This document shows, piece by piece, positions 25,888 to 32,559 of a stretch of 64,000 bases of DNA. The DNA is from Psychrobacter sp. JB385 (lineage in GTDB: Bacteria; Pseudomonadota; Gammaproteobacteria; Pseudomonadales; Moraxellaceae): assembly GCF_900163785.1 (NCBI RefSeq), contig NZ_FUKN01000014.1, forward strand, positions 496,001 to 560,000, read 5' to 3'. The notes beneath the pieces were generated by a model that worked only from the letters and a program-made list of their open reading frames with translations, was not told the DNA's origin and made no database searches. The position numbers were made by a program, and so were the translations under genes. Each line of letters begins with the position of its first letter. Positions within the stretch are counted from its first letter, which is position 1.

Positions 25888-26628
25888 ATGACGCTACGAA
25901 TCCATGCGCTCTACCATGTTGATTTTGAAGAGCTTAGTTTTATTAAGCAATGGGCAGATAATAAAGGTCATCGTATTACGGTGACGCGCTTTTATGAAAA
26001 TGATCCGCTGCCCGCGCAAGACAGTTTTGATTGGCTAATCATTATGGGTGGGCCAATGAGTATTCATGATGAAAATGACTTTGAGTGGCTAGCCGATGAG
26101 AAAGCCTTTATTCAGCAAAGTATTAATGATGGAAAAACCGTGATTGGTGTTTGCTTGGGTGCACAACTAATTGCAGATAGTTTGGGGGCAAAAGTTGCGC
26201 CATCGGGCATCAAAGAGGTTGGCTGGCTGCCTATTCAATTGACAGAACAAGGGCTTGCGCATCCGCTGTTAGCAGGGTTACCAAAGAATGAATTCACTGT
26301 ATTTCATTGGCATGGTGATGGTTTTGAATGTCCCAAAGGCGCGACGCCAATTGCCACGTCACATACTTGGGCCAATCAAGGGTTTATTTATCAAACACCA
26401 AAACACAAAGAATTAGATACGTGGGTGCTCGGCTGGCAATGTCATTTTGAAGTGACTAACCAGAGTATGGTAGATATGGTGTCGCATGGACAGACGTATA
26501 TACAAGAAGCGATGAGTGATCATCCTGACTCTGTGCAAGCGGCTGATGAGATCTTGGCGCTAGGAGAGACGTATATTGCCGATAACAATGCATGGCTCTC
26601 TACAATGCTAGATAACTTGGCAAAATGA
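25888..26628 (+). CDS. Class I glutamine amidotransferase (stand-alone GuaA-like domain)
   Basis: 246 aa stand-alone GATase1. The triad is visible: C89 in IGVCLGAQLIADSLGA, H186 and E188 in GWQCHFEVT. FHWHGDGFECPKGA is a further family motif, and the oxyanion segment MGGPMSIHDE lies at 53-62. It resembles uncharacterised 'GMP synthase-like' proteins such as YfeJ. No ATP-pyrophosphatase domain or partner synthetase is adjacent, so the acceptor is unknown. I use ATG 25888, with AGGAG at 25877-25881; TTG 25885 is three bases earlier. It is flanked on both sides by copies of the same terminator. Confidence 0.85.
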   Translation: MTLRIHALYHVDFEELSFIKQWADNKGHRITVTRFYENDPLPAQDSFDWLIIMGGPMSIHDENDFEWLADEKAFIQQSINDGKTVIGVCLGAQLIADSLGAKVAPSGIKEVGWLPIQLTEQGLAHPLLAGLPKNEFTVFHWHGDGFECPKGATPIATSHTWANQGFIYQTPKHKELDTWVLGWQCHFEVTNQSMVDMVSHGQTYIQEAMSDHPDSVQAADEILALGETYIADNNAWLSTMLDNLAK

Positions 26629-26707
26629 TATTAATGAGTTATGAATAAAGTATTTTCAATGTCAAAGCATGGGAAGAATGACAGAAAAGTAAGTGACTTA
26701 AGATTTA

Positions 26708-26745
26708 AAAAAACCGCTTAGCGTTTGCTAGGCGGTTTTTATTTT
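26708..26745 (+). terminator. Second copy of the glyA-type terminator
   Basis: Repeats 32 bases of the glyA terminator exactly (26708-26739), then diverges by one extra T in the T run. It lies 80 bases after the amidotransferase stop and could also end gltS transcription from the other strand. Confidence 0.9.
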
Positions 26746-26780
26746 GTTTATTTAACTTTTGAGTTTATCGCGATAGCTAG

Positions 26781-28055
26781 TTACATAAACGGCAGTTTAG
26801 TAAATATCTGCAATACCGTAGCGTTGACAATATCGACAAAGAAAGCACCAACCATCGGCACAATCAAAAATGCTTTAGGTGAAGGCAAATAACGGTCAGT
26901 CACCGCCTGCATATTGGCAATCGCCGTTGGAGTTGCACCCATACCGAACCCACAATGTCCTGCTGATAGGACAGCCGCATCATAATCTTTGCCCATGACT
27001 TTGAACGTAATAAAGTAAACATAAACAATCATAATGACCGTTTGTACAAGCAAGATCACCAAGACAGGACCTGCCAAGTCAGTCAGCTGCCAAAGTTTTA
27101 GAGACAACAGCGCCATGGCCAAAAATAGACTCAAAGAAGCATTACCGAATACATCGATAGAGCGATCAAACATATCAAAATTGAATACCGTGGTTAAGAC
27201 ATTACGAATGATAACCCCGCCCGCTAGTGCCCAAACGAAGGTAGGCAGCTCAAACCATGTGCCCTCAGCGACAAGTGTCATTACCTCAGCGAAAGCCAAC
27301 GCCCCTGCAAACAACGCAAGTGTCTCAATCGTAGAGGAGGCCGTAATAAAGCGCATGCTATCAGGTCTCTCAAAGATCTCTTTATTACTGTGTGCCGAGT
27401 CTTCGTCGTGCTTGGTACTATAAAGTGATTGCGCGTTTGCAACCTTCTCGATGTCACTAGGGTTTTGATTGGCAGGGGTCGGTTTTAGACCAAGGTTTTG
27501 AATCAAACGCTTTGCCACTGGTCCACCGATAATACCACCAGCGACCAGACCATAAGTGGCCACTGCGATACCAAGCGTCGTTGCGCCAACCACGCCATAT
27601 TCTTGTTCTAGGGTAATGCCCCATGCACCAGCCGTACCATGACCACCCGTCAGAGCGATAGAACCTGTTACCAATCCAAGTAACGGATCAAGACCCAGTA
27701 CGCTTGCCATAGCGACACCAACGATGTCTTGCAATACAATGAAGACCGACACCACAATCGTAAAGATTAATAACGGTGTCCCACCTGCTTTTAATCGACT
27801 GAAATCAGCACTCAAACCGATAGACGCAAAGAACATCAGCATCGTCGCTGTCTGCAACCCTTGATGAAAGTTAAAACTGTATCCCCAAACGATATTGAGA
27901 ACATAAACCACAATGGCTGCAACCAAACCACCAGCGACCGGCTCTGGAATGTTGAAGTCCTCTAGGAACTTAATTCTTCTTACTAAAACGCGCCCAAGTA
28001 GTAGCACTAAGGTGGCCAATATCAGCGTGTAATAGCCGTTTAAGGTAATTTCCAT
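26781..28055 (-). CDS. gltS: Sodium/glutamate symporter (GltS)
   Basis: Inner-membrane Na+-coupled glutamate importer of the ESS family, 424 aa, with about ten hydrophobic segments. Family signatures are FNIPEPVAGGLVAA (residues 34-47), ASIGLSADF, and the two re-entrant-loop glycine motifs TGGHGTAGAWG (about 136-146) and SAGHCGFGMGATPTAIAN near the C-terminus. A hydrophilic loop at about 195-230 separates the two halves. Downstream of the RNase/barstar pair on the same strand, 108 bases away. Together with the two ABC systems in the window, it points to strong capacity for acidic amino-acid uptake. Confidence 0.94.
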   Translation of the reverse strand: MEITLNGYYTLILATLVLLLGRVLVRRIKFLEDFNIPEPVAGGLVAAIVVYVLNIVWGYSFNFHQGLQTATMLMFFASIGLSADFSRLKAGGTPLLIFTIVVSVFIVLQDIVGVAMASVLGLDPLLGLVTGSIALTGGHGTAGAWGITLEQEYGVVGATTLGIAVATYGLVAGGIIGGPVAKRLIQNLGLKPTPANQNPSDIEKVANAQSLYSTKHDEDSAHSNKEIFERPDSMRFITASSTIETLALFAGALAFAEVMTLVAEGTWFELPTFVWALAGGVIIRNVLTTVFNFDMFDRSIDVFGNASLSLFLAMALLSLKLWQLTDLAGPVLVILLVQTVIMIVYVYFITFKVMGKDYDAAVLSAGHCGFGMGATPTAIANMQAVTDRYLPSPKAFLIVPMVGAFFVDIVNATVLQIFTKLPFM

Positions 28056-28163
28056 ATGTTAATCCTTTCTATACAAATGAATTAACCCGCATTCGGGATA
28101 AATATGGCTTTATCTCGAATTCAGGTTGATATGATGATTCGCAGTTAAGCCGTTTTTGTCAGA

Positions 28164-28538
28164 TTAAACGCTGTCCGCGGGCGGCATAATAACCCACAAT
28201 TGCGGCTTACCAAAATCTCTGTAAGCATCTTCAATGATGCGCTTAAAAGTATTGAAATCTTCAGTATTGATCGTGTCTACTGTTGCTAGGTTCAGCGTCA
28301 AATAGGACACTGAGCTGTCTGTAAGACAATCCCATGCGCTATCCCAGTTAAGTGAGAAGTAGCTGGGAAAATCACAAGCATGTGCCAAATTCGTTAATAA
28401 GGTGGTTTTATTTAATACCTTGTTTACAGGTATGTTAACAGCCTGTGCCAAGATGCTAGCACTTAGTGCTGTACCTTTTTGGTTAATGCAGTTTTGATCA
28501 AGACAGCTTTGACTGACATAGTAAATGGCTTGGCTCAT
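28164..28538 (-). CDS. Barstar-family RNase inhibitor (immunity partner)
   Basis: 124 aa. The central segment DFPSYFSLNWDSAWDCL (56-72) matches the barnase-binding helix and loop of barstar. Y60, D66, W69, D70 and C71 correspond to barstar Y29, D35, W38, D39 and C40. LWVIMPP near the C-terminus fits the last strand. I chose ATG 28538, which lies one base after the RNase stop (TAA-A-ATG), with AGG just upstream; an earlier ATG at 28571 would overlap the RNase gene by 32 bases. The tight coupling and partner identity indicate that it neutralises the upstream RNase in the cytoplasm. Confidence 0.88.
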   Translation of the reverse strand: MSQAIYYVSQSCLDQNCINQKGTALSASILAQAVNIPVNKVLNKTTLLTNLAHACDFPSYFSLNWDSAWDCLTDSSVSYLTLNLATVDTINTEDFNTFKRIIEDAYRDFGKPQLWVIMPPADSV

Positions 28539-28539
28539 T

Positions 28540-29298
28540 TTATTGTACCTGTAATCTGCGAAAGCTCTCATAGTGGTCGACAGTCAGATAGTAGACGGTC
28601 GGAGGATAGCCACCAGTGACGATGCGCCTCGCACCGCGATGTGACAAGCCAGGGGTAGGGACGGTATATTCGCGGTAATAGCCTTGCGACTGTGCTGGCA
28701 GTTTGCCTTCACGATTATAAAAGGTTGTGCCGTCTTTTTGCGGATACGGAAATGGGCCGCCTTGTTGAATCAGCGCAATCGTCTTATCGACTTGCGCATC
28801 ACCCGTGATATTGAGAGTAGGCGCTTGGTCTGAAGTTTCGGAGAATGAGTGTGATACCGCAGGCGTGGCATTATCAGCAAAGAGAGAAGAGGTGAAGTCC
28901 CCAAAGGCATACACGGCAACCGCGATAAAGGCCATGAGAATAAATAAAGTAGATACAACGCTCTTTTTGGGTTGCTCATGGCGGCGAGTGCTTAGATCGT
29001 CTTGAGAATAATGCTTGCCTTGAGAGTACTGATTTCGGGCAGTAGGGCTAAATGCATGCTGAGGAGGGGCTACGTCCATATCCTCGACTATACTCAAGGA
29101 AGTAGAGGTAACTTCTGTGGCTCTTAACTGGTTTTTCGCATTGCGTTCACTATTGAAGTATACCTGTTGGCCGATAGAGATAGGATACGATAAGCGAACC
29201 TTACTCACGTGAAAAAACACGTCTTCACTTTGGTTATCTACCTCGATAAAGCCATAGCCTTTTTCTTGATACCAGCGTTTAATTTTGCCACTCTGCAT
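28540..29298 (-). CDS. Cold-shock domain / transmembrane / microbial RNase (Sa-barnase type) fusion
   Basis: 252 aa with three parts. Residues 1-66 are a cold-shock domain with RNP motifs KGYGFIEV (13-20) and DVFFH (26-30). A polar linker (70-112) ends in a basic cluster, then a single membrane segment at about 113-132. Residues 165-252 match guanyl-specific RNases: GGPFPYPQKDGTTFYNREG, then E210 in YYREYTV, R221 and R225 in HRGARR, and H242 in VDHYESF, aligning with E54, R65, R69 and H85 of RNase Sa. The basic residues before the membrane segment predict N-inside, RNase-outside topology. The next gene encodes a barstar homologue. This looks like a membrane-tethered RNase toxin or exported nuclease with cytoplasmic immunity. 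Confidence 0.88.
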   Translation of the reverse strand: MQSGKIKRWYQEKGYGFIEVDNQSEDVFFHVSKVRLSYPISIGQQVYFNSERNAKNQLRATEVTSTSLSIVEDMDVAPPQHAFSPTARNQYSQGKHYSQDDLSTRRHEQPKKSVVSTLFILMAFIAVAVYAFGDFTSSLFADNATPAVSHSFSETSDQAPTLNITGDAQVDKTIALIQQGGPFPYPQKDGTTFYNREGKLPAQSQGYYREYTVPTPGLSHRGARRIVTGGYPPTVYYLTVDHYESFRRLQVQ

Positions 29299-29371
29299 GG
29301 GCCCGTTTCCTCTAAACTCGTCTATGATGCAAAAAATACTGATACGGCTGCCAAATATATCGAGCGTTAAT

Positions 29372-29405
29372 AAAAAAACGCCAGCGATTGGGCTGACGTT
29401 TTTTT
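29372..29405 (-). terminator. proA terminator
   Basis: A 14-bp stem with one G-U pair (AAAAAAACGCCAGC against GCTGACGTTTTTTT, loop GATTGG). It lies between proA and the RNase gene, so the RNase/barstar pair is transcribed from its own promoter in 29299-29371. Confidence 0.88.
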
Positions 29406-29470
29406 TATCAATTATACTGTAAATTAGACGCTATATGGTAGGTTACCAGCCAAAATGCAGAGGCCATACA

Positions 29471-30772
29471 TTAAGCACGCGTCTCACCATGACCATAAAC
29501 AATCCATTTTTGTGATGTGAGACCTTCAAGACCAACAGGGCCACGAGCATGGATCTTATCAGTTGAGATACCAATCTCTGCACCCAATCCGTACTCAAAA
29601 CCATCTGCAAAACGGCTAGAGGCATTGATCATCACGCTTGCAGAGTCCACTTCACGGATGAAGCGCTGCGACTTAGTATAGTTGTCAGTAATAATCACAT
29701 CCGTATGATGACTGCCATGAGTGTTGATGTGATCAATTGCCTCGTCAATACCTGATACGACTTTGACAGCCAAGATAGGCGCTAAGTATTCAGTGTCCCA
29801 ATCTTCAGCGGTCGCGGCAGATAGATGACCTTTTAAGGCATTATTGTCGTTTAAAATAGCCTGAGACTTGTCGTCAAGGCGCAGTTGCATGGCATCATCA
29901 GCCGCAATAATCGCTTCAGCAATTTTTGGTAATAGATTATCGGCGACTGATTCATCAACCAACAGTGTCTCCATAGTGTTACAAGTACCATAGCGGTGCG
30001 TTTTTGCATTGACGCTCACCTTGATAGCGATTTGGGCATCTGCATCACTATCAATAAAGGTATGGCAGTTACCATCTAGATGCTTAATCACAGGCACACG
30101 CGCGTCACGACTGATACGTTCAATCAGACCTTTACCACCGCGTGGTACGATAACGTCGACATAATCAGTCATGGTAATCAGTTCACCGACAGCGGCGCGA
30201 TCAGTCGTTTGTAAGACTTGCACAATGTGCTCAGACAGCCCAACTTTTTGTAGACCCTCCAAGATACACTTGGCAATCGCTTGATTGGATTCAAACGCTT
30301 CTGAACCGCCTCGCAAGATAATCGCATTACCTGATTTTAGGGCCAGTGACGCCGCCTCTAACGTCACATTAGGACGCGACTCATAGATCATACCAACCAC
30401 GCCAAGCGGCACGCGCATTTTTCCCAAATGAATGCCTGATGGCTGATAAGTCATGTCAGTGACTTCACCAATAGGATCTGGTAACGCCGCCACATCCTTT
30501 AAACCTTGTAACATGCCATCAAAACGCGCGTCGTTTAGTTCAAGACGATCAAGTAACGCGGCATCCAAATCGTTGCTTTTACCCTTATCCATGTCAATTT
30601 TATTGGCAGATAAGATATCTTGTTTCGCCGCTTCTAATACATCGTGAATTGCCATTAGCGCTGAGTTTTTATCACCCGTATTGGCAGCAGCGAGCGCCCG
30701 TGAAGCAGCTCGGGCCTGTTTGCCAACAGTGTGCATATAAGTGGTTACGTCTGTGGTATTCGCTTGGCTCAT
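29471..30772 (-). CDS. proA: Gamma-glutamyl phosphate reductase (ProA)
   Basis: Second enzyme of proline biosynthesis, reducing gamma-glutamyl phosphate to glutamate-5-semialdehyde with NADPH. 433 aa aldehyde-dehydrogenase fold. Evidence includes [17 protein letters not shown] (121-137), [25 protein letters not shown], and the catalytic cysteine C264 in [13 protein letters not shown]. The C-terminal [21 protein letters not shown] is typical. It stands alone; proB is not in the window. It has its own terminator. Confidence 0.95.
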
Positions 30773-31143
30773 AAATTATTTTCCTTATATAGTGATTGAT
30801 GTTTTAAATATGAAAAAGTGCCTAAAGGCAAAAATGTAACAGAAAGAAAATTTGTATGCCCATAAGACATTATGCTATTTAACATAGAGGAGATTGGGGC
30901 GATAGTAAAGATGGTTTTGTGAACAAATACCTTTCATAAAAGGTAATTATTTTTCTTTTTACACTCATCTTGTCCGTTTTGTCTGTGACTTCCCTATGAT
31001 GTCACAATATAGGCAATATCCGTTGCATCGTTACGAGCCTTAACAGAACTGAGGTGTAACTACTAAGGTAGACTTGAATAATCCTGAGTATAGTGAGGCA
31101 TTAGTACCAATCAGATACTCGTAATTATTAATGGAGCAGAACA
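30773..31143. other. Divergent spacer between proA and a small lipoprotein gene
   Basis: 371 AT-rich bases with the two divergent promoters, neither clearly resolved. Ribosome-binding site GGAG at 31133-31136 serves the lipoprotein. No other structure was recognised. Confidence 0.4.
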
Positions 31144-31461
31144 ATGAAGATTAACAATAATAGTGGCAAAAAAACTTGGATGACCGTGGGTTTGGTGGCG
31201 GCCGCATTAACATTGGGCGCTTGTGGTAAAAAAGATGAAGCACCCATGGAGACCGAAACGGCAGTTGACGCACAGACAGCGGTAGAAGATGGCGCAACTG
31301 GTGTAGCAACAGCAAATGATGATGTGGCAGTCGCTAGTGCCAATGATGGCAGCACAGATGATGTGGCGGTGGCAAGTGCCAACGATGAAGTCACCGTAGG
31401 CGCTGATGACAAAGAAATGCTCGATGGTACTGAAGATTCAGAGCACGTTTCGACCTACTAA
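31144..31461 (+). CDS. Small acidic lipoprotein of unknown function
   Basis: 105 aa. A lipoprotein signal (hydrophobic 13-26) ends in LGAC, giving lipidated C27. The mature part is highly acidic and Ala/Val/Asp-rich, with DDVAVASAND occurring twice (about 59-68 and 76-85). No domain is recognisable. A GGAG ribosome-binding site and a strong terminator make it a genuine single gene. Its function cannot be inferred; it may be an abundant envelope lipoprotein. Confidence 0.75.
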   Translation: MKINNNSGKKTWMTVGLVAAALTLGACGKKDEAPMETETAVDAQTAVEDGATGVATANDDVAVASANDGSTDDVAVASANDEVTVGADDKEMLDGTEDSEHVSTY

Positions 31462-31505
31462 GCCCTCGCTCAGATAACGTCACGTCCAGTACATTTAAAT
31501 GATAA

Positions 31506-31549
31506 AATAAAGCCCAAAGCTGTCAATGCAGTTTGGGCTTTATTTTTTT
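31506..31549 (+). terminator. Terminator of the small lipoprotein gene
   Basis: A 13-bp stem (AATAAAGCCCAAA against TTTGGGCTTTATT), extended inward by CTG/CAG with one bulge, followed by a T run. Confidence 0.9.
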
Positions 31550-31761
31550 GTTTGCTTAGACCGACTAGGCTTATACAAGATTTGCCTTTTTACCGCTCAA
31601 TAAGAGACAATATGACATTTTACTTTTTGTCTTGTCAGTCATAGTGGTATCACCATAATACTATGGTTGACAGTTATACTATGTAAAACGAATCTGTATA
31701 CGACATGTCTGTCTCTTTTTATTGACGTTTTCACTCATATTTATTGGAAGTCTGCTAAACC

Positions 31762-32559
31762 ATGCTTGATACTGCAAAAAATCCGACTCGGCCTATCGCC
31801 TTAGATTTACAAGACGTCCATAAAAGCTACGGCTCACTCGCAGTGCTAAAAGGGGTGTCACTCACTGCATACGATGGTGATGTTATCTCTATTTTGGGCT
31901 CCTCTGGCTCAGGCAAATCTACTTTGCTACGCTGCATCAATTTGCTCGAAAAGCCAAATCAAGGTCGTATCATTATTGGTAATGATGAGCTGATTTTGAA
32001 ACCTGCTAAATCAGGTGAGTTGCAAGCCGCAGACACAAAGCAGCTCGAAAGCCTGCGTGCTCGGGTAGGGTTTGTTTTTCAGAACTTTAACTTGTGGCCG
32101 CACAAAACAATTTTGCAAAACATTATTGAAGGGCCAACGCAGGTTCTCAAGATCAAGAAAGCCCAAGCGATTAGTGATGCAGAAAAGCTACTGGATAAAG
32201 TCGGTTTGCTGGATAAAAAAGATGCGTATCCAGCGAATCTCTCTGGTGGTCAACGCCAGCGTGTGGCTATCGCTCGAGCGCTTGCCATGCAGCCACAAGT
32301 CCTCTTGTTTGATGAGCCGACCTCAGCGCTAGACCCTGAGCTGGTCAATGAGGTACTGGCTGTTATGAGAGAGTTGGCGGAAGAAGGCCGTACCATGCTG
32401 ATTGTCACTCATGAGATGCGTTTTGCTCGAGAAGTCTCTAGCAAAGTCGTTTTTTTACATCAAGGCGTGATTGAGGAGATTGGTACTCCTGAGCAAGTAT
32501 TTGATAATCCTACCTCTGAGCGTGTCAAAGACTTCATGGCATCGCATCGTCAGAACTAG
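31762..32559 (+). CDS. Polar amino-acid ABC transporter, ATP-binding protein
   Basis: ATPase of the HisP/GlnQ/ArtP class, 265 aa. Walker A is GSSGSGKST (about 48-56), the Q-loop lies in [11 protein letters not shown], the ABC signature is [17 protein letters not shown], Walker B is [14 protein letters not shown], and the H-loop lies in IVTHEM. It begins a locus with three binding lipoproteins and two permeases on the same strand. The 347-base gap after it holds a hairpin, so stoichiometry with the downstream genes may be set by processing or separate promoters. Histidine or arginine-type substrates are likely from family, but not proven. Confidence 0.92.

Follow-up and report, generated by a model that had tools for sequence, protein, structure and literature searches.

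Conserved fusion of a cold-shock domain through a predicted membrane anchor to an RNase Sa-type domain, with an adjacent barstar gene, in Psychrobacter

Psychrobacter is a genus known for cold habitats. In the 64,000-nucleotide stretch of the Psychrobacter sp. JB385 genome analysed here (contig NZ_FUKN01000014.1, positions 496,001 to 560,000; hereafter the window), 2 adjacent genes on the reverse strand encode a fusion of a cold-shock domain (CSD) with an RNase Sa-type domain and a barstar homologue. The fusion gene (28540..29298, stop included, ATG start; 252 residues) comprises (i) the CSD (residues 3–65; 29104..29292); (ii) a linker predicted to be cytoplasmic (residues 67–112; 28963..29100), where the confidence of the AlphaFold model is low; (iii) a membrane segment (residues 114–132; 28903..28959); (iv) a predicted periplasmic linker (residues 133–163; 28810..28902); and (v) a guanyl-specific-type RNase Sa domain (residues 164–252; 28543..28809). 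Its TAA stop (28542–28540) is separated by the single base 28539 from the ATG at 28538 of the barstar gene (28164..28538; 124 residues); the open reading frame list allows a longer start at 28571, and the ATG at 28538 agrees with the relatives. Among 105 genomes of the genus, PF00545, the Pfam family of the RNase domain, is present in 83, of which 82 carry the gene pair because the match in G073 sits in a 1469-residue frame of another kind. The close relatives of both proteins that carry a species name come from Psychrobacter. An earlier first-pass annotation, made from the letters and reading frames of the window alone, had described a 252-residue protein with this domain order and a one-base link to barstar. 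Pfam matches and hydropathy confirm the layout, and the gap is exactly 1 nt in 56 of the 82 genus loci under our choice of starts.

The RNase domain matched PF00545 over residues 167–249 (E = 4.3e-21, above the curated cut-off), and the structural check that the first-pass annotation had called for returned the RNase Sa fold. Alignment to PDB structures placed E210, R221, R225, and H242 on RNase Sa E54, R65, R69, and H85, the catalytic residues of that enzyme, as the annotation had noted, and placed F193-N195-R196-E197 on its guanine-recognition stretch. The catalytic glutamate, the 2 arginines, and the histidine were kept in all 76 intact genus proteins (the 82 minus G046, G098, G095, G007, G088, and G076, which are broken, cut, N-filled, or frameshifted). 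The residues for guanine recognition are present, and guanyl-specific cleavage is predicted. The RNase domain of the window protein contains no cysteine.

The strongest hydrophobic stretch of the window protein spans residues 114–132 (hydropathy 2.53 across 19 residues), within one residue of the segment proposed earlier (about 113–132), and the AlphaFold model has a helix at residues 118–131. Each of the 76 intact proteins has a single hydrophobic peak (mean 2.24), the next best value elsewhere being at most 0.84. Lysine plus arginine came to 6.1 on the CSD side of the segment versus 0.5 on the RNase side, with the CSD side higher in 76 of 76 proteins; among 11 other fusion proteins, 10 had the same charge lean and P0241 was even (3 versus 3). 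Hydropathy and charge bias together predict that the CSD lies inside and the RNase outside the cytoplasm, which supports, as a prediction, the topology of the first-pass annotation. Towards the end of the membrane helix, many members carry a small-x-small motif (AVA, GVG, GIG, or AVG), which could serve in helix packing or as a peptidase site.

The CSD matched PF00313 over residues 3–65 (E = 1.4e-11; 44.5 bits versus a cut-off of 27). The RNP residues K13–I18 and D26–H30 are almost invariant in the 76 proteins, in agreement with the motifs marked earlier at residues 13–20 (RNP1) and 26–30 (RNP2). We pooled dN/dS from 217 moderately diverged pairs of the 2850 possible, with barstar estimated from its own pair set. 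The values for the CSD (0.076), the membrane region (residues 111–133; 0.068), and the RNase domain (0.053) indicate strong purifying selection; those for the linkers were 0.46–0.47 (about 0.46 for residues 67–110), and that for barstar was 0.18.

The barstar homologue matched Pfam Barstar (PF01337; E = 5.3e-11; 42.8 bits versus a cut-off of 23.4). Residues Y60, D66, W69, and D70, which the first-pass annotation had taken as the barnase-contacting residues, align to barstar Y29, D35, W38, and D39, if weakly (E = 0.31), and are nearly invariant in 80 genus barstars (76, 80, 79, and 80 of 80, respectively; the 82 loci minus 2 frameshifted ones). The hydrophobic maximum of the window barstar (1.19; highest among relatives, 1.65) is not comparable to the RNase anchor. 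A barstar sequence adjoins the RNase in all 82 genus loci; frameshifts disrupt it in G049 and G076, and in G081 it is truncated at a contig end. Of 7 loci with larger distances that were inspected, 6 offer an additional in-frame ATG one base past the RNase stop, and one distance value of 511 arises from a stop inside locus L026. In one genus clade (L010, L013, L016, L084, and L092), the 5′ end of barstar is an in-frame array of units of about 15 nt, several with an ATG, which gives candidate starts 1, 16, 31, 46, 61, or 76 nt past the RNase stop. The N-terminal part of barstar bears Asn/Gln-rich, INQN-like repeats (28472–28514 in the window), the number of which differs between species (for example L069 and L075).

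The locus lies mostly in one chromosomal place. Of the 82 fetched stretches, some of them short or truncated at a contig end, 75 contain proA on the same strand, 71 contain gltS, and 68 contain both; in G078, G079, and G088, proA lies on a different contig. Twenty-three genus genomes lack the locus, and the corresponding site was fetched for 22 of them (G063 is at a contig end). Among these 22 stretches, gltS was present in 16, fragments of barstar in 4 (E = 3e-10 to 0.013), and weakly matching fragments of the RNase tail in 2 (E = 0.06 and 0.78). With the window barstar as query, no intact barstar without an RNase was seen in the genus. The remnants at locus-less sites suggest that the pair has long been present in the genus and has been lost on more than one occasion. 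Upstream of the fusion gene, an inverted repeat (AACGCCAGC...GCTGACGTT; 29371..29407) between A- and T-runs is by eye the proA terminator; the terminator scan did not report it as one, and its stem recurs in relatives. About 70 bases separate this repeat from the CSD-RNase start codon. When the upstream regions of 77 loci were aligned (the 82 minus L027, L030, L071, L100, and L114, with broken, cut, or shifted starts), little conservation was seen apart from the stem of the terminator and an AGGA resembling a ribosome-binding site. The promoter scan reported none ahead of the gene, and an Rfam scan of 26000–32000 gave no match. The short space, the little conservation, and the lack of an Rfam match together appear to leave no room for a long leader of the cspA type, and no such cold-shock leader was found.

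Three loci lack an intact CSD. In L100 (G007), the usual MQSGK start is followed almost straight by the anchor and the RNase (166 residues), and barstar is intact; at E = 0.001, that genome yields just one further match to the window protein, a 226-residue frame that was not read and is probably a CSD-DUF1294 protein. In L026 (G046), a stop codon interrupts the linker that follows the CSD, and L027 (G098) has a frameshift within the CSD. All 3 retain an intact RNase domain and an intact barstar, with pN roughly one tenth of pS in comparison with the nearest intact relative, although this divergence may largely predate the CSD break and assembly error is possible; G076, with both genes frameshifted, was excluded as a likely error. 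The best reading is that the CSD is selected yet dispensable.

Outside Psychrobacter, the CSD-less pair is the usual form. At family level, PF00545 matched in 85 of 348 genomes, and beyond the genus only in G337, whose locus L063 is a plain RNase with barstar, and in G148. The matches in G073 (L115, 1469 residues) and G148 (L116, 2144 residues) lie in large frames, which were not read and are perhaps contact-type toxins. In a draw across the class, 15 of 369 genomes matched, including that of the window itself; among the remaining 14 matches, L128 (in G495) is a CSD-membrane segment-RNase fusion, 10 read as RNases without a CSD, and L134–L136 were not read. The barstar of L128 follows 2 bases behind the RNase, among neighbours other than proA and gltS. 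Its host probably belongs to the Cardiobacteriales because G495 shares a genus with G719, whose locus L240 reads as P0242 (Cardiobacteriaceae bacterium TAE3-ERU3). Across the order that includes G495, 3 of 32 genomes matched, and the third match (L241, E = 1.4e-14) was not resolved. A further fusion group (P0253, P0255, and P0259) has the same 2 domains. With L128 as query, we fetched the best 80 of the 82 loci found; none of these 80 has a CSD motif in frame, 77 have a barstar HMM match, 45 have barstar directly behind the RNase under our distance rule, and 17 have a lipobox-like motif. By eye, the CSD-less relatives mostly begin with hydrophobic or lipoprotein-like segments. Several of L138–L158 (Thauera/Azoarcus) are plain RNases with a lipobox-like N-terminus and may be lipoproteins, which would be another kind of tether.

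In an RNase tree built from 96 columns, with many forks unresolved, all 27 fusion-locus rows (including L100, itself without a CSD) fell together with support of 94/93, and 2 plain Halomonas RNases (L160 and L175) fell inside this group; a strict single clade of fusion RNases was not rejected (p-AU 0.25). Row psy_L111 was truncated to 32 residues. The CSDs of 7 fusion proteins scored 87–237 against each other, 84–126 against the CSD-DUF1294 protein, and 56–113 against free Csp proteins, ranges that overlap. The window CSD scored 126 against the CSD-DUF1294 protein of the same genome (L002) and 66–79 against the genome's 3 free Csp proteins, and was nearer to the former than to the fusion CSDs of P0241 (110) and P0255 (87), which speaks against one clean group of fusion CSDs. 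It is possible, from these comparisons, that one old fusion was later inherited or passed on. Among 6 class loci in which a CSD lies in a long frame, by eye L270, L275, L276, and L279 look like CSD-DUF1294 proteins, whereas L268 is the gene already described as L128 and L280 gave no frame. CSD-Excalibur fusions were also considered and found no support; the 5 Excalibur frames read in relatives (L262 and L264–L267) have no CSD.

Known RNase Sa and barnase enzymes are small and secreted. The window pair resembles RNase Sa, Sa2, Sa3, and barnase with barstar in the RNase fold, the catalytic residues, the guanine-recognition stretch, and the adjacent inhibitor gene; the fusion protein differs in having a CSD and an anchor ahead of the catalytic domain, which has no cysteine. 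Simple proteobacterial RNase-barstar pairs (L063, Thauera, and Undibacterium) share the joint genes and the N-terminal hydrophobic segment but have no CSD. CSD-DUF1294 proteins such as L002 likewise have an N-terminal CSD followed by membrane segments; they carry DUF1294 (PF06961), whereas the window protein carries an exported-type enzyme. Barnase is described as a small secreted enzyme in PMC8625414. The first-pass annotation had called the layout odd, which is fair, but it is conserved rather than unique: the CSD-membrane segment-RNase architecture, for which the annotation had recommended a search, recurs throughout the genus and in other lineages, more than chance would give. Database names already cover both domains (for example "guanyl-specific ribonuclease Sa/cold shock CspA family protein"). 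A search of open-licence PMC full text found no paper combining cold shock domain with barstar and ribonuclease, barstar with Psychrobacter, or cold shock domain with guanyl-specific ribonuclease.

We consider it likely that the locus encodes an inner-membrane-tethered, periplasm-facing guanyl-type RNase, with barstar as its cytoplasmic guard and the CSD as an added module. The single hydrophobic segment would act as a signal anchor that carries the RNase domain across the inner membrane. Outside the cytoplasm, the enzyme would cut RNA that serves as a nutrient, belongs to the matrix, or enters the envelope, and cytoplasmic barstar would neutralize RNase that folded before export. The cytosolic tail of the anchor would have acquired the CSD, which very probably still binds single-stranded nucleic acid. 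As a guess, the CSD may keep RNA, possibly the transcript of its own gene, at the cytoplasmic side of the membrane and thereby adjust insertion or output. Topology, RNase activity, barstar binding, and nucleic-acid binding by the CSD are predicted. The enzyme-inhibitor pair is ordinary; the CSD fusion is an unusual conserved variation. Of the 3 possibilities raised by the first-pass annotation (a sensing tether that releases the toxin, a contact-dependent weapon, and a guarded exported RNase), the guarded RNase fits best, as its usual relatives are the same without the CSD.

Several observations weigh against the guarded, tethered enzyme: (i) confidence of the model is low in the membrane region (block means 48 and 56); (ii) in 68 of the 76 proteins, an A-x-A motif occurs in the second half of the segment or shortly beyond it and leaves room for signal peptidase cleavage, so that "tethered" is not certain; (iii) the window barstar matches solved barstars weakly by sequence, and Foldseek with its model returned no barstar under E = 0.001, although barstars top the list (probability at most 0.99; TM-scores about 0.35–0.65); (iv) in G049 a frameshifted barstar stands beside an intact RNase, which would speak against a needed guard, and both genes are frameshifted in G076, although these frameshifts are likely errors because both assemblies are only 84–85% complete; (v) P0009 keeps an intact CSD but ends at residue 204, ahead of the RNase active site; and (vi) selection on the CSD nearly matches that on the RNase, so that "added module" may understate it.

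The last point, the similarly strong constraint on the membrane segment, and the A-x-A motif, with the intact RNP residues, would also suit a release switch in which the CSD senses cytosolic RNA or cold and governs membrane insertion of the RNase or its proteolytic release, with barstar blocking what remains inside. We regard this as unlikely: neither a conserved long leader nor an Rfam element was found, the 3 loci with a missing or broken CSD retain RNase and barstar, and P0245, P0247, and P0252 have no such A-x-A by eye. The sensing tether of the first-pass annotation thus gained no positive evidence. A related and somewhat bolder proposal, a transmembrane RNA sensor-effector in which the CSD, bound to its own message or to cold-stabilized RNA, decides between insertion and barstar-bound retention, seems to us quite unlikely. 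An intracellular toxin-antitoxin or phage-defence pair, with a cytoplasmic RNase guided to RNA by the CSD, could draw on CSD matches to the PADLOC model CSD_V (E = 1.8e-8) and the NCBIfam retron Se72 effector (E = 2.3e-6, below the cut-off of that model), but these look generic because other Csp models score equally well or better; the strong hydrophobic segment, the uniform N-in charge bias, the hydrophobic or lipoprotein-like N-termini of most CSD-less relatives, and the genus-wide locus make such a pair very unlikely. Barnase and barstar are known as toxin and immunity domains, and the domain pair and its order resemble the Tox-Barnase/Imm-Barstar pair of polymorphic toxins described in PMC3482391; the same RNase family also occurs in the large frames of G073 and G148. 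That the pair is a contact-dependent weapon or a polymorphic-toxin effector, with barstar conferring immunity, is nevertheless highly improbable: variable toxin tips and changing neighbourhoods were sought, and instead the locus is mostly in one place, dN/dS is low, and the toxin domain is constant over the genus, while the 252-residue protein has an anchor and a CSD in place of delivery domains, with no large delivery protein. That the RNase is a dead scaffold and the membrane CSD the working part, as the shortened RNase of P0009 and the CSD-DUF1294 proteins, in which membrane CSDs serve other ends, might suggest, can hardly be reconciled with the fully kept catalytic residues, the invariably adjacent barstar, and the CSD-losing loci that retain the RNase.

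A single conserved protein here combines an RNA-binding domain in the cytosol with an RNA-cleaving domain predicted to lie outside. If the sensor-effector proposal were true, the state of RNA inside the cell would set the dose of RNase outside. The family offers a simple test case for why membrane proteins bear cold-shock domains, with natural controls in the relatives that have the same RNase-barstar pair and no cold-shock domain.
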